Source: Thermococcus cleftensis (lineage in GTDB: Archaea; Methanobacteriota_B; Thermococci; Thermococcales; Thermococcaceae). From it: DNA of 64,000 bases. Of this stretch, positions 18,047 through 27,279 are shown piece by piece; the stretch's first letter is position 1, and each line of letters opens with the position of its first letter. The DNA lies in assembly GCF_000265525.1 (NCBI RefSeq), contig NC_018015.1:842322-906321 (forward strand), written 5' to 3'. The notes under the pieces were generated by a model. It was not told where the DNA came from. It saw only the letters and a list, made by a program, of their open reading frames with translations, and made no database searches. The translations under genes and the position numbers were made by a program.

Positions 18047-18790
18047 ATGCCAACCTGGAAGGACGGAAAGCTCGGATTGCCGATAAAAGATGCCCTGAAG
18101 CTCTTTCCGGAGCTGGGAAAGTACATTGACGAGCGCGGAAGGCTCGACTTCTCAAACAGAAAAGCCAGAATACTTTACAACCAAGCGATAGCGAAGGCCC
18201 TTTTCGGGCTGGACATAGAGTACCACCCGCACGGGCTGGTAACTACTCCCGTTTCGCGCTACCTCTTCCTGAAGACCTTCCTCGGGGGCGGTGAGAGGGT
18301 TCTGGAGATAGGGACGGGGCATACTGCACTGATGGCACTCATGTCGGCGAAGCTCTTCAACTGCGACGTCACAGCGACTGAGATTGATGAGGAGTTCTTC
18401 GAGTACGCGAGGAGGAACATCAAGCGGAACAGAGCTAGAGTTAAGCTCATCAGGAGCAACAGCGGGATAATTCGAGGTGTGATCCCGGAGGGAGAGCTTT
18501 TCGAAGTCATCTTTTCTGCACCTCCCTACTACGAGGGGCCGACAAAGGGCGTTCTGACCGAGCTTGAAGGCGTCGGTGGAGGGAAACACGGCGAGGGCTT
18601 TTCAGTGAGGCTCATCGAGGAGGCGCTGGACTATTTGAAGCCGGGCGGAAGGGTAGCCCTCTTCCTTCCCGACAAGGGGCCGCTGATAGAGGCCGTGGAA
18701 GAAAAGGGAAAGGAACTGGGCTACTCCGTCAGGGACGTACGCTTTAAGGCCGGAACGAGGTGGAGGCACAGCCTGATCCTCAAGGCTTAG
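18047..18790 (+). CDS. RlmF/METTL16-type SAM-dependent RNA methyltransferase
   Basis: Class I methyltransferase of 247 residues. The arrangement matches the RlmF/METTL16 (DUF890) family: an N-terminal region with DFSNRKARILYNQAIAKALF, the HPHGLVTTPVSR segment, SAM motif VLEIGTGHTALMAL (about 86-99) and ATEIDEEFFEYARRN. The catalytic tetrad, NPPF or NPPY in N6-adenine methyltransferases, is SAPPYY here (about 155-160), with Ser-Ala before the PP. The likely target is an adenosine in rRNA or U6-like RNA, but substrate is not predictable. No ribosome binding site is seen, so the mRNA may be leaderless. It is convergent with another methyltransferase gene. Confidence 0.8.
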   Translation: MPTWKDGKLGLPIKDALKLFPELGKYIDERGRLDFSNRKARILYNQAIAKALFGLDIEYHPHGLVTTPVSRYLFLKTFLGGGERVLEIGTGHTALMALMSAKLFNCDVTATEIDEEFFEYARRNIKRNRARVKLIRSNSGIIRGVIPEGELFEVIFSAPPYYEGPTKGVLTELEGVGGGKHGEGFSVRLIEEALDYLKPGGRVALFLPDKGPLIEAVEEKGKELGYSVRDVRFKAGTRWRHSLILKA

Positions 18791-18860
18791 GGACTCGGAC
18801 CGTGGGCGTCTCATCACTCACGCCGGAATCAGAGGAGGTGCTTTCTCCTCATCGTCCCTA
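18788..18860 (-). ncRNA. Candidate C/D box small RNA
   Basis: On the minus strand the whole gap between two convergent genes can be read as a C/D box guide RNA. Elements in order are: terminal stem TAGGGAC (18860-18854), C box ATGAGGA (18852-18846), 13-base guide, D' box CTGA (18832-18829), C' box GTGATGA (18817-18811), 12-base guide, D box CCGA (18798-18795), and closing stem GTCCCTA (18794-18788). The C and D boxes each deviate at the position that normally forms the U-U pair of the kink-turn (U to G and U to C). This would replace it with a G-C pair. Both stems overlap the stop codons of the flanking genes. A bidirectional terminator is the alternative reading. The methylation targets are not known to me. 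Confidence 0.5.
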
Positions 18861-20048
18861 CTTCATATCCTCCACGTAGAGGAAGAGCGCCTTGAGGTAC
18901 TCCGTGTCCTTCGAGGCCATGAGTATCGGGTGGTCCGGCGCCTGAGTCCTGTAGGGCTCGAGGAGCTTGAGGAACTTCCCGGCCTTGGCAGCGGCCGCAA
19001 TGACCATGTCCTTGAAGGCCTGCATGTCCACGTGCTGGGAGCAGGAGGCCGTAACGAGGATTCCACCCTCCTTCACCAGCTGTAAGCCGGCGTAGTTCAC
19101 GTTGAAGTAAGCGCGAAGACCACGCTTTAGGTCCTTCTCGTGCTGGACGAATGCGGGCGGGTCGAGGATAACGATGTCAAACTTCTCGCCCCTCTTTATC
19201 ATCTCCTCCATTACCGGGAAGGCCGAACCCACTATGTACTTCATCTTGTCCTCAACACCGTTGAGCTTGGCGTTCTCCTTCACCATGTTGATTGCCCAGG
19301 GGGATTTGTCTACAGCCACCACCTCGTCGGCTCCAGCGACGGCGGCATGTATCGCGAAGCCGCCGGTGTAGGTGAAGACATCGAGAACCCTCATTCCCGG
19401 CTTGACGTACTTCTCAAGGGCTATTCTGTTCTCCCTCTGGTCGAGGAAGAAGCCCGTCTTCTGTCCCCGCATATCCACGATGAACTTGGCCTTTCCTTCC
19501 TCGATTACCGTCCGGTACTTCTCCTTACCGAGGAGGACGCGCTCTATCTCTGGCAAACCTTCCCTCCTCCTCGAGCGCCCGGTGTTCTTCTCGAAGACTG
19601 TCTCTATCTCCGGCTCTGCCTCCATTATAGCCTCGGCCAAATCGAGCTTGAAGCGCTCCATTCCAACGCTCGAAATCTGAATCGAGGCAATCTCATTGAA
19701 GCGATCCACTATGAGACCCGGCAGGTAGTCGGCCTCGCCGTAGACCATGCGGTAGGCTTTGTCGTAGCCGAGAACCTTCTTGCGGTACTCGTTGGCCTTC
19801 CTAATCCTCTCGCGAAAGAGCTCCTTGTTTATCTCCGTCCCGCGGTCCTTGGTTACTAGGCGAACCATTATGTTGGAGTTGGGATTGACAAAGCCCTTTC
19901 CTAGAAACTTCCCACCCCTAGTGTAGACTTCGACTACATCTCCGGGCTCGAAGTTACCTTCCGTTCTCACGACGCCCTTTTTGAATACGATCATCGCACC
20001 CTTTCCTATGGCTCTCGCGGCCTGAGCATCTACTATCACCCTCGCCAT
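18858..20048 (-). CDS. PUA-domain class I rRNA methyltransferase (RlmI-like)
   Basis: SAM-dependent RNA (cytosine-5) methyltransferase family protein of 396 residues. It has an N-terminal PUA RNA-binding domain (about 1-75, beginning ARVIVDAQAARAIGKGAMIV), a central EEHEA-like domain and a C-terminal Rossmann domain with VLDVFTYTGGFAIHAAVAGA (about 218-237), VVAVDKSPWAI and the motif IVILDPPAF. The Cys in VTASCSQHVD is placed like the catalytic cysteine of this family. The ATG at 20048 is chosen because GGTGGTGA ends two bases before it; codons upstream lack such a signal. It is divergent from the gene at 20118 and convergent with the other methyltransferase. Confidence 0.9.
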   Translation of the reverse strand: MARVIVDAQAARAIGKGAMIVFKKGVVRTEGNFEPGDVVEVYTRGGKFLGKGFVNPNSNIMVRLVTKDRGTEINKELFRERIRKANEYRKKVLGYDKAYRMVYGEADYLPGLIVDRFNEIASIQISSVGMERFKLDLAEAIMEAEPEIETVFEKNTGRSRRREGLPEIERVLLGKEKYRTVIEEGKAKFIVDMRGQKTGFFLDQRENRIALEKYVKPGMRVLDVFTYTGGFAIHAAVAGADEVVAVDKSPWAINMVKENAKLNGVEDKMKYIVGSAFPVMEEMIKRGEKFDIVILDPPAFVQHEKDLKRGLRAYFNVNYAGLQLVKEGGILVTASCSQHVDMQAFKDMVIAAAAKAGKFLKLLEPYRTQAPDHPILMASKDTEYLKALFLYVEDMK

Positions 20049-20075
20049 TCTCACCACCGGTGGAAGTTCGGCGAT

Positions 20076-20117: not shown

Positions 20118-20426
20118 ATGCACTTCGAGGTAGTGAAGGAGTTTCTTGAGGATATAGGGGCGGACTGGATAGAGATTGACGGCGAAATCCACCTGGAGCC
20201 GGAGGTCTTCTATGAGGTCTGGAAGTACGTCGGACAGCCGGAGCTTGAAACATACACCGTCGAGGACGAGGTCGTCGAGCCTGGTTCTTACGATCCGCCC
20301 GAGATGAAGTACACTGAAATGAAGACGATGAAGGTCAAGAAGGCGTACTTCACCACGCTTGACGGCAAGAGGATCGTCACCGACTACGCGGAGCTCCAGA
20401 AGATCATGAAGGAGAGGTTCGTCTGA
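20118..20426 (+). CDS. Conserved acidic protein of unknown function
   Basis: Acidic 102-residue protein, probably a small alpha/beta domain (predicted helix at the start, LEPEVFYEVWKYVG, then a strand-rich end KVKKAYFTTLDGKRIVTDYA). The start ATG 20118 has the ribosome binding site GGTGATT. It looks like a real gene by codon use and signals and resembles proteins conserved in Thermococcales, but I cannot name a function. It is convergent with the permease gene that ends at 20437. Confidence 0.7.
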   Translation: MHFEVVKEFLEDIGADWIEIDGEIHLEPEVFYEVWKYVGQPELETYTVEDEVVEPGSYDPPEMKYTEMKTMKVKKAYFTTLDGKRIVTDYAELQKIMKERFV

Positions 20427-26126: not shown

Positions 26127-26971
26127 GGGGCAAGCTTAAAATCACCGCGGCGATGCTGATATGGGGAAGCGTCGGCATATTCGGCCGCTTTTCGGGGCTG
26201 TCGGGATTAGGTGTGGCTTTTGCTAGGGTCTCCCTCGGCGCGCTCCTTCTCCTTGCAGTGCTGGCAGGGAAGGGGACACCAGCTTCCATCGCGTACCTCC
26301 TGCGAACTCGCTGGAAGCCCCTCCTCGCACTCGGCTCTGCCCTTGCCCTCAACTGGACGTTCCTCTTCACTGCCTTTAACTACACGACGATAGCCAACGC
26401 GGTCCTCGTTTACTATGCTGCTCCAATCCTGGCAACGCTGATCTCCTGGCGCTTCCTCTGAGAGAAGATGAGCGCGAAAAGGTGGGGGCTCATCGGGCTG
26501 GCCTTCCTAGGGTTGGGACTCATAATGAGCGGCCAGAGAATCGACCTTGGTGACAGGGATTTCGTCGGGATTTTACTCGCCCTGACGGCGGCGTTCTTCT
26601 ACGCCCTGATACCGAATCTGGGAAGGTTCCTCAGAGAAATCGATGGGAAAACCCTGACATTCCTTCAGCTTGCCGTGGCATCTCTCGTCCTAGCCCCCAT
26701 CGTGGCCATCTCGGACGTTGGAGAACCTGTCTGGTGGGCGGTTCTGGTTCTCGTGGCCGTTCACACAGTTTTTGCCCTCTACCTCTACATGGACGGGCTA
26801 AAGGAGGTGGAGGTTAGCGAGGCGGCCTTGCTGAGCTACCTCGACCCGCTAAGCGCGGTTGTTTACGCCCTTCTTATCTTTGGGGAAGTTCCAGGGATAA
26901 AAACGATTGCCGGAGGGACGCTCATACTTCTCGCATCGGCGCTGGACTTGATTTGGGCGAGGGGGTCGTAG
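26123..26971 (+). pseudogene. EamA/DMT family transporter interrupted by an in-frame TGA
   Basis: Drug/metabolite transporter family protein with ten predicted helices in two EamA halves. Reading from GTG 26123, the first half (113 residues, to LATLISWRFL) ends at TGA 26459-26461. The same reading frame continues without shift from the next codon as EKMSAKRWGLIGLAFLG to the stop at 26969-26971. Intact relatives have a Gly before the EK dipeptide, so a single GGA to TGA change explains it. Thermococcales are not known to insert selenocysteine, so it is read as a nonsense-mutated gene or a sequencing error. An ATG at 26468 could start a separate second half. An intact paralogue lies at 31223-32080. 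Confidence 0.85.
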
Positions 26972-27279
26972 CCCGCCTTCTGTATCAAGGGGGCATTCGA
27001 CTGAGCGGCCTACCACGGGGCTCGCACCGGGAACTCATCGCCCCTCCCTCGGCCTTGCACCCCGCGGGACGGCCGTTTCACCGCATCCCCCGGGATCGTC
27101 TGCGGGTTATCTCGGGCACCGTCGCCGGGCCCTTCGCGCGCGTCATTCACATCTCCCGGGGGCCGTGTCGTTTCTGCGCCGTTGCCCTCCCTCTCGGGAG
27201 GTGCCTTGCGGCACCGCGGCCCCGGTGCGGTGGGCGGAACTTCCTCGGGAGAACCCCGAGAGCCCCCGACCCCCTCGCC
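26956..27279 (-). ncRNA. rnpB: RNase P RNA (archaeal type A)
   Basis: Catalytic RNA of ribonuclease P, which trims tRNA 5' ends. On the minus strand the conserved elements appear in order: GAGGAAGTTCCGCC (CR-I), GCAGAAACGACAC (CR-II/III region), GGTGAAACGGCC (CR-IV region), and GTAGGCCGCT followed by CAGAAGGCGGGCTA (CR-V/3' end). The P1 helix is a perfect 13-bp pairing of GGCGAGGGGGTCG (27279-27267) with CGACCCCCTCGCC (26968-26956), which fixes both ends. A TATA element (TTTTTAT on the minus strand, about 27302-27308) lies 26 bases upstream. The 3' strand of P1 lies inside the last codons of the EamA pseudogene on the opposite strand. High GC content is normal for a hyperthermophile structural RNA. 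Confidence 0.96.

Follow-up and report, generated by a model that had tools for sequence, protein, structure and literature searches.

It is established for box C/D guide RNAs that L7Ae folds the kink-turns and that Nop5 and fibrillarin are recruited. Archaeal members show a strong bias for U:U at the kink-turn position 3b:3n (PMC5689011), and for a Watson-Crick pair in that place the prediction is that Mg by itself gives no folding and that L7Ae is needed (PMC4382518). C/D genes are well known to overlap the 3' ends of adjacent genes, sometimes with a stop codon within the sRNA, and archaeal C/D sRNAs that methylate tRNA include sR50 of the tRNA-Trp intron and guides directed to tRNA-Leu and tRNA-Met; the tRNA-targeting sRNAs of Pyrobaculum are described with one guide lacking a target (PMC7994747). 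In yeast, Trm44 makes Um44, a modification known there so far only in tRNA-Ser (PMC7018073).

The closest catalogued family to the RNA considered here is Rfam RF01128 (sR43, described as 'Small nucleolar RNA sR42'), for which no published target was found in the accessible literature. In Thermococcus kodakarensis, a 71-nt transcript named ncRNA03 (1593064-1593134) was sequenced with 7,565 reads, and its circular reads fell from 403 in the wild type to 1 in an RNA-ligase deletion; its authors gave it no C/D sRNA number (PMC9014305).

Here we describe an RNA of this family within a 64,000-nucleotide stretch of Thermococcus cleftensis DNA, referred to below as the window, together with its orthologues in other Thermococcaceae. 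The RNA itself is already catalogued; the new part is a pair of proposed targets.

Results

A box C/D sRNA of family RF01128

An Rfam search matched RF01128 to the minus strand of the window at 18793-18857 with 71.4 bits, passing the gathering threshold (cut-off 45; E = 6e-15 in 64 kb). The model was matched over its full length (1-56), with both guides and all four boxes aligned, and itself carries no base pairs. RF01128 is present in 89 of 94 Thermococcaceae genomes, with one match in each, and gave 0 matches in 14 control genomes. The segment is therefore a box C/D guide RNA of family RF01128, a result far beyond chance and an RNA of a catalogued kind. Its C, D', C' and D boxes stand in order, with spacers of 13 and 12 nt where approximately 10-13 are expected (Table 1); the register of the C box was fixed by genomes G027 and G083, which have GUGAUGA at the equivalent place. 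An earlier note, made from the window sequence, had placed a double-guide box C/D sRNA with these boxes, 13- and 12-nt guides and a 7-bp stem in a convergent gap, and this description was borne out in every particular by the sequence, the RF01128 match and the boxes conserved in 88 parsed relatives. The comparison among relatives that it had proposed further showed boxes and guides to be better conserved than the outer stem.

Table 1. Features of the sRNA locus in the window (minus-strand elements are written as RNA).
Feature	Position	Strand	Remarks
Predicted mature 71-nt sRNA, RF01128 orthologue	18787..18857	-	Ends +/-5 nt, transferred from the T. kodakarensis circular junction
Terminal stem, 5' strand UAGGGAC	18854..18860	-	From sequence; the PUA methyltransferase gene stops at this UAG
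C box AUGAGGA	18846..18852	-	Consensus RUGAUGA; fifth base G, not U
D' guide GAAAGCACCUCCU, 13 nt	18833..18845	-	Best target 16S rRNA AGGAGGUGC, 988-996
D' box CUGA	18829..18832	-	From sequence and relatives
D'-C' spacer UUCCGGCGUGA	18818-18828	-	Longer than the Pyrococcus spacer
C' box GUGAUGA	18811..18817	-	GUGCUGA in many Thermococcus relatives
D guide GACGCCCACGGU, 12 nt	18799..18810	-	Best target tRNA-Ser(GGA), L171, index 42-52
D box CCGA	18795..18798	-	Consensus CUGA; C18797 lies opposite G18848
Terminal stem, 3' strand GUCCCUA	18788..18794	-	CUA is the antisense of the stop of the convergent methyltransferase gene
Upstream gene, PUA-domain class I RNA methyltransferase, RlmI-like	18858..20057	-	Orthologue of PH1915 (PDB 2as0)
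Convergent gene, Methyltransf_10 (RlmF/METTL16-like) methyltransferase	18047..18790	+	Close to PDB 3evz

Boxes and guides are common to the window RNA and the RF01128 model, from which the window RNA differs by a D'-C' spacer 7 bases longer, an A to G change in the C box and a U to C change in the D box. Within this spacer (18818-18828), ACGCC is able to pair with GGCGU of the D guide. A scan for the D' guide in named genomes outside Thermococcales returned scattered bacterial records only, which were taken as chance.

Expression of the T. kodakarensis orthologue

The RF01128 match in T. kodakarensis (G023:C1:1593071-1593134) lies inside ncRNA03. The two coordinate systems agree, since the 16S gene of G023 (2022864-2024352) falls within the published circular 16S intermediate at 2022801-2024382 (PMC9014305). 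Hence the orthologue is expressed in T. kodakarensis and, on the published reads, is a stable small RNA there (PMC9014305). Like the window RNA, ncRNA03 has the same guides, is 71 nt long and adjoins the same PUA methyltransferase gene; it differs in having G:U rather than G:C at 3b:3n and GUGCUGA as its C' box, and it begins 25 nt beyond the upstream gene match. Tko-sR42 (1226948-1227017, PMC9014305), despite its name, is a separate locus whose coordinates differ from those of the orthologue.

Evolution of the terminal stem and kink-turn

Stem and boxes were compared in 88 genomes, which hold 71 distinct versions of the sRNA. The sheared G.A and A.G pairs of the kink-turn core are invariant (71/71), and the G-C pair at 4b:4n is kept in 70 of the 71. 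For the inner five stem pairs, pairing is seen in 69, 69, 67, 70 and 63 versions, where shuffling gives means of 45.8, 45.0, 55.8, 56.6 and 45.8, and complete exchanges of the stem are seen (GGGAC/GUCCC, GGCA/UGCC, CCGC/GCGG). The terminal stem is thus a helix of five covarying pairs.

In the window, seven perfect pairs join UAGGGAC to GUCCCUA, and the TAG stops of both genes lie inside the outer stem (upstream gene, 18860-18858 on the minus strand; convergent gene, 18788-18790 on the plus strand). The overlap with both stop codons to which the earlier note had drawn attention is real in this sequence. Pairs six and seven, which include most of both stop codons, form in 46 and 32 of the 71 versions, little above shuffled, so the overlap is confined to this species and its closest relatives. 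Moreover, wherever two convergent genes both end in TAG, the resulting UAG...CUA is bound to pair, and the outer stem is best seen as incidental.

The same features could be taken to mean that the element acts chiefly as a structured 3' end for both convergent genes and that its boxes have no function: it fills the convergent gap, its predicted fold is strong (z = -3.0) and the stem reaches both stops. Such an element would not be expected to conserve boxes and guides above its outer stem, to yield a stable circular product, as the T. kodakarensis orthologue does, or to persist away from the methyltransferase genes, as it does in two genomes (G008, G009). Furthermore, no U-tract, terminator-like or promoter-like element was found at the locus, in a scan that did not cover archaeal promoters. 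This reading is in large part refuted, and we consider it extremely improbable.

The usual place of the U:U is occupied in the window by G18848:C18797. Among the 88 genomes, 3b:3n is GU in 23, GC in 20, AU in 12, CC in 9, CG in 6 and AA in 5; the rarer combinations are AG (4), UU (4), AC (2) and UA, UG and CU (1 each). The family therefore holds 12 combinations, with U:U in only 4 of 71 versions and C:C tolerated. Canonical or GU combinations make up 50 of the 71 versions against 38.9 in shuffles, a comparison in which relatedness is left in. The earlier note had proposed a coupled, compensatory change from U:U to G:C; G:C is true of the sequence but not of its history, for a coupled event is ruled out by the looseness of 3b:3n across the family and by the G:U of the near relatives G037 and G047. 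The window pair is best read as a single later U to C step in the D box. Avoidance of combinations that fold with ions, following the rule of PMC4382518, is not strict either, as 11 of 57 distinct versions have one. U:U at 3b:3n is usual with exceptions, and is neither a requirement nor a defining feature on its own; one sRNA family can largely lack this canonical element of the kink-turn.

Gene neighbours and genomic context

Both flanking genes encode methyltransferases that match at family level only: the PUA-domain, RlmI-like protein reached 308 bits where the cut-off is 575, and the Methyltransf_10/METTL16-like protein scored 33 against the RlmF cut-off of 302. The sRNA could conceivably be tied to them in function, as a modification module or through mRNA regulation, and it does lie directly between the two genes in 36 of 89 genomes. 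These comprise 28 in which it is on the strand of the PUA gene and 8 in which it is on the other, however, and its orientation changes at least 8 times on the methyltransferase gene tree; even the close sister genes of G016 and G039 have sRNAs of opposite orientation with different stems. The PUA gene is hundreds of kb from the sRNA in G004, G005 and G007, as are both genes in G008 and G009, and in some Pyrococcus the sRNA stands apart from the two genes. In the complete genome G034 the sRNA is gone, while the two genes remain, overlapping at their 3' ends, and the tRNA-Ser site is unchanged. With varied orientation, separation and deletion, the neighbours are no conserved partner set, and a functional tie is very unlikely. 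The earlier note had described both flanking genes as RNA methyltransferases, one being RlmF-like, which holds at family level; a meaning in the pairing is not supported.

The position of the sRNA downstream of a co-directional gene in either orientation fits release from read-through transcription, and origin from the 3' end of the upstream mRNA, as the earlier note had suggested, is plausible given the results of the promoter and terminator scan above.

Several further features were observed. In the loci L005, L006, L018, L030, L034, L035, L038 and L049 the sRNA occupies the opposite strand of the same convergent gap with different stems; this arrangement is that of most g4 genomes, and a reversal with respect to the PUA gene is likewise seen in the g1 genomes G016, G030, G033, G042, G046 and G063. 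One g4 genome (G080, locus L014) has boxes, guides and spacer identical to the common g1 version, in the g1 orientation, and its PUA methyltransferase gene groups with g4, a possible case of sRNA cassette transfer. In G034 (C1, L271:1260-1300) the frame of the second gene continues antisense to the first, which looks as though the sRNA and the last codons had been deleted. The PUA methyltransferase match at G028:C1:575634-576826 is in two overlapping pieces, suggesting a frameshift. Elsewhere in the window are an archaeal RNase P RNA (26957-27278, minus strand; RF00373, 196.7 bits) and a 102-aa ORF (20118-20426, plus strand) that matches nothing in NCBIfam and is transcribed divergently from the PUA methyltransferase gene.

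The D guide and tRNA-Ser(GGA)

Complements to both guides, which the earlier note had advised seeking, were searched for in the 16S and 23S rRNA and 44 tRNAs of the same genome, and each guide returned a candidate. By a wide margin, the best site for the D guide is the junction of anticodon stem and variable arm in tRNA-Ser(GGA), with which guide positions 2-12 form 11 contiguous pairs (10 Watson-Crick and one GU); guide position 5 (N+5) falls on index 45, which is U44, the first base after the anticodon stem. Matches of the D guide to 16S U569 (8 pairs) and 23S U1464 are weaker. Shuffled guides reached the observed score against rRNA and tRNA in 63 of 1500 trials for the D guide and 225 of 1500 for the D' guide, so that pairing in a single genome is weak evidence, especially for D', where it is not significant by itself.

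For tRNA-Ser(GGA), gene sequences were read from 83 genomes and, where both RNAs were parsed, the run containing position 5 spans 9-13 pairs in 60 of 79. Of the 69 genomes with the canonical tRNA site, 64 keep the canonical D guide, compared with 4 of the 11 with a changed site; loss of the guide thus goes with change of the site (Fisher p 6e-5), an association that amounts to 3.1 against 0.1 independent pairs on the gene tree and is not significant once relatedness is counted. The site is kept alongside a different D guide in five genomes, and in G034 it is kept although the sRNA is absent.

It may be that this is a genuine RF01128 sRNA whose D guide is an orphan or has some other target, the tRNA-Ser match being chance between two conserved sequences. 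A 4% rate of equally good shuffles on the same target set is compatible with this, as is the frequency of archaeal guides without a recognised target (28% in Pyrobaculum; PMC7994747), and the predicted tRNA targets of P. furiosus C/D sRNAs in the available part of PMC7668247 do not include tRNA-Ser. A chance match would hardly be expected, however, to put its N+5 base on the very residue known as Um44 in yeast, or to recur as runs of 9-13 pairs across six genus groups, and the D guide is conserved whereas its flanks and the spacer drift. We therefore regard the orphan reading as rather unlikely, and the D guide probably directs 2'-O-methylation of U44 in tRNA-Ser(GGA). Against this, the mass-spectrometry study of PMC7668247 analysed P. 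furiosus tRNA-Ser(GGA), and its available text makes no mention of Um44.

Other departures from the common guide were noted. In one clade (G025, G028, G038 and G040) the D guide is separated from the D box by an additional base, as is seen in loci L056, L057, L058 and L070, and the predicted methyl site would accordingly shift to G43 of tRNA-Ser(GGA). Targets for replacement D guides, for example AAACGGGU on 23S G2948, were not clearly above shuffles. The replacement guides CGGGU and GGGU of L077-L082 and L084-L089 (G059, G031 and similar genomes) complement ACCCG in their own D'-C' spacer and may have become part of an internal hairpin.

The D' guide and 16S helix 34

The D' guide forms 9 pairs with 16S rRNA at 988-996, placing N+5 at G992, which by alignment corresponds to E. 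coli G1050, a helix 34 residue four bases ahead of C1054. Every one of the 89 parsed loci contains its GCACCUCC portion. Most species have A at guide position 10, where it mispairs with A997; 13 genomes have U there instead, which pairs. Eleven of these 13 have lost the D guide to tRNA-Ser (11 of the 16 genomes lacking that guide against 2 of the 73 others). The A to U change and loss of the tRNA guide occur together in approximately 6.2 independent pairs, with 0 in the opposite sense (median sign-test p 0.03), a count that is approximate because the tree beneath it is that of a single gene, the neighbouring methyltransferase. This suggests that the sRNA has a real task on rRNA, tightened when the task on tRNA was dropped. 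That the D' guide directs 2'-O-methylation at G992 (E. coli G1050) is a weaker proposal than that for the D guide, its chances being a little better than even; the available text of the P. abyssi 30S paper contains no 2'-O-methyl data.

Discussion

Taken as a whole, the explanation that we favour, and consider quite likely, is a double-guide C/D sRNA orthologous to RF01128 that guides methylation of tRNA-Ser(GGA) U44 and 16S G992. The sRNA would be released from transcription running past the end of the upstream gene; the terminal stem would join its ends and RNA ligase circularise part of the pool, as has been shown for the T. kodakarensis orthologue (PMC9014305). L7Ae would fold the C/D and C'/D' kink-turns and recruit Nop5 and fibrillarin, whereupon the D guide would pair at the anticodon-stem/variable-arm junction of tRNA-Ser(GGA) to set Um44 and the D' guide at helix 34 to methylate G992. 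In several Thermococcus lineages the tRNA guide would then have been lost and the rRNA guide have gained one base pair.

The window RNA resembles archaeal C/D sRNAs that methylate tRNA (PMC7994747) in having a guide predicted to act on a tRNA, but differs from them in its target, tRNA-Ser 44, and in that its other guide has a candidate rRNA target. The predicted residue is the same as that modified by eukaryotic Trm44 (PMC7018073), yet Trm44 is a stand-alone protein enzyme, whereas here a guide RNA acting with fibrillarin would specify the site. It is reasonably probable that an archaeal C/D sRNA makes Um44 of tRNA-Ser, such that RNA-guided and protein-only machineries reached the same site, and that some Thermococcus dropped the guide and tightened that for helix 34. 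If so, family RF01128 would gain a function and Um44 would be predicted in archaeal tRNA-Ser, while the guide that is lost, kept or shifted by one base among relatives would offer a natural case for testing how guides and targets evolve.
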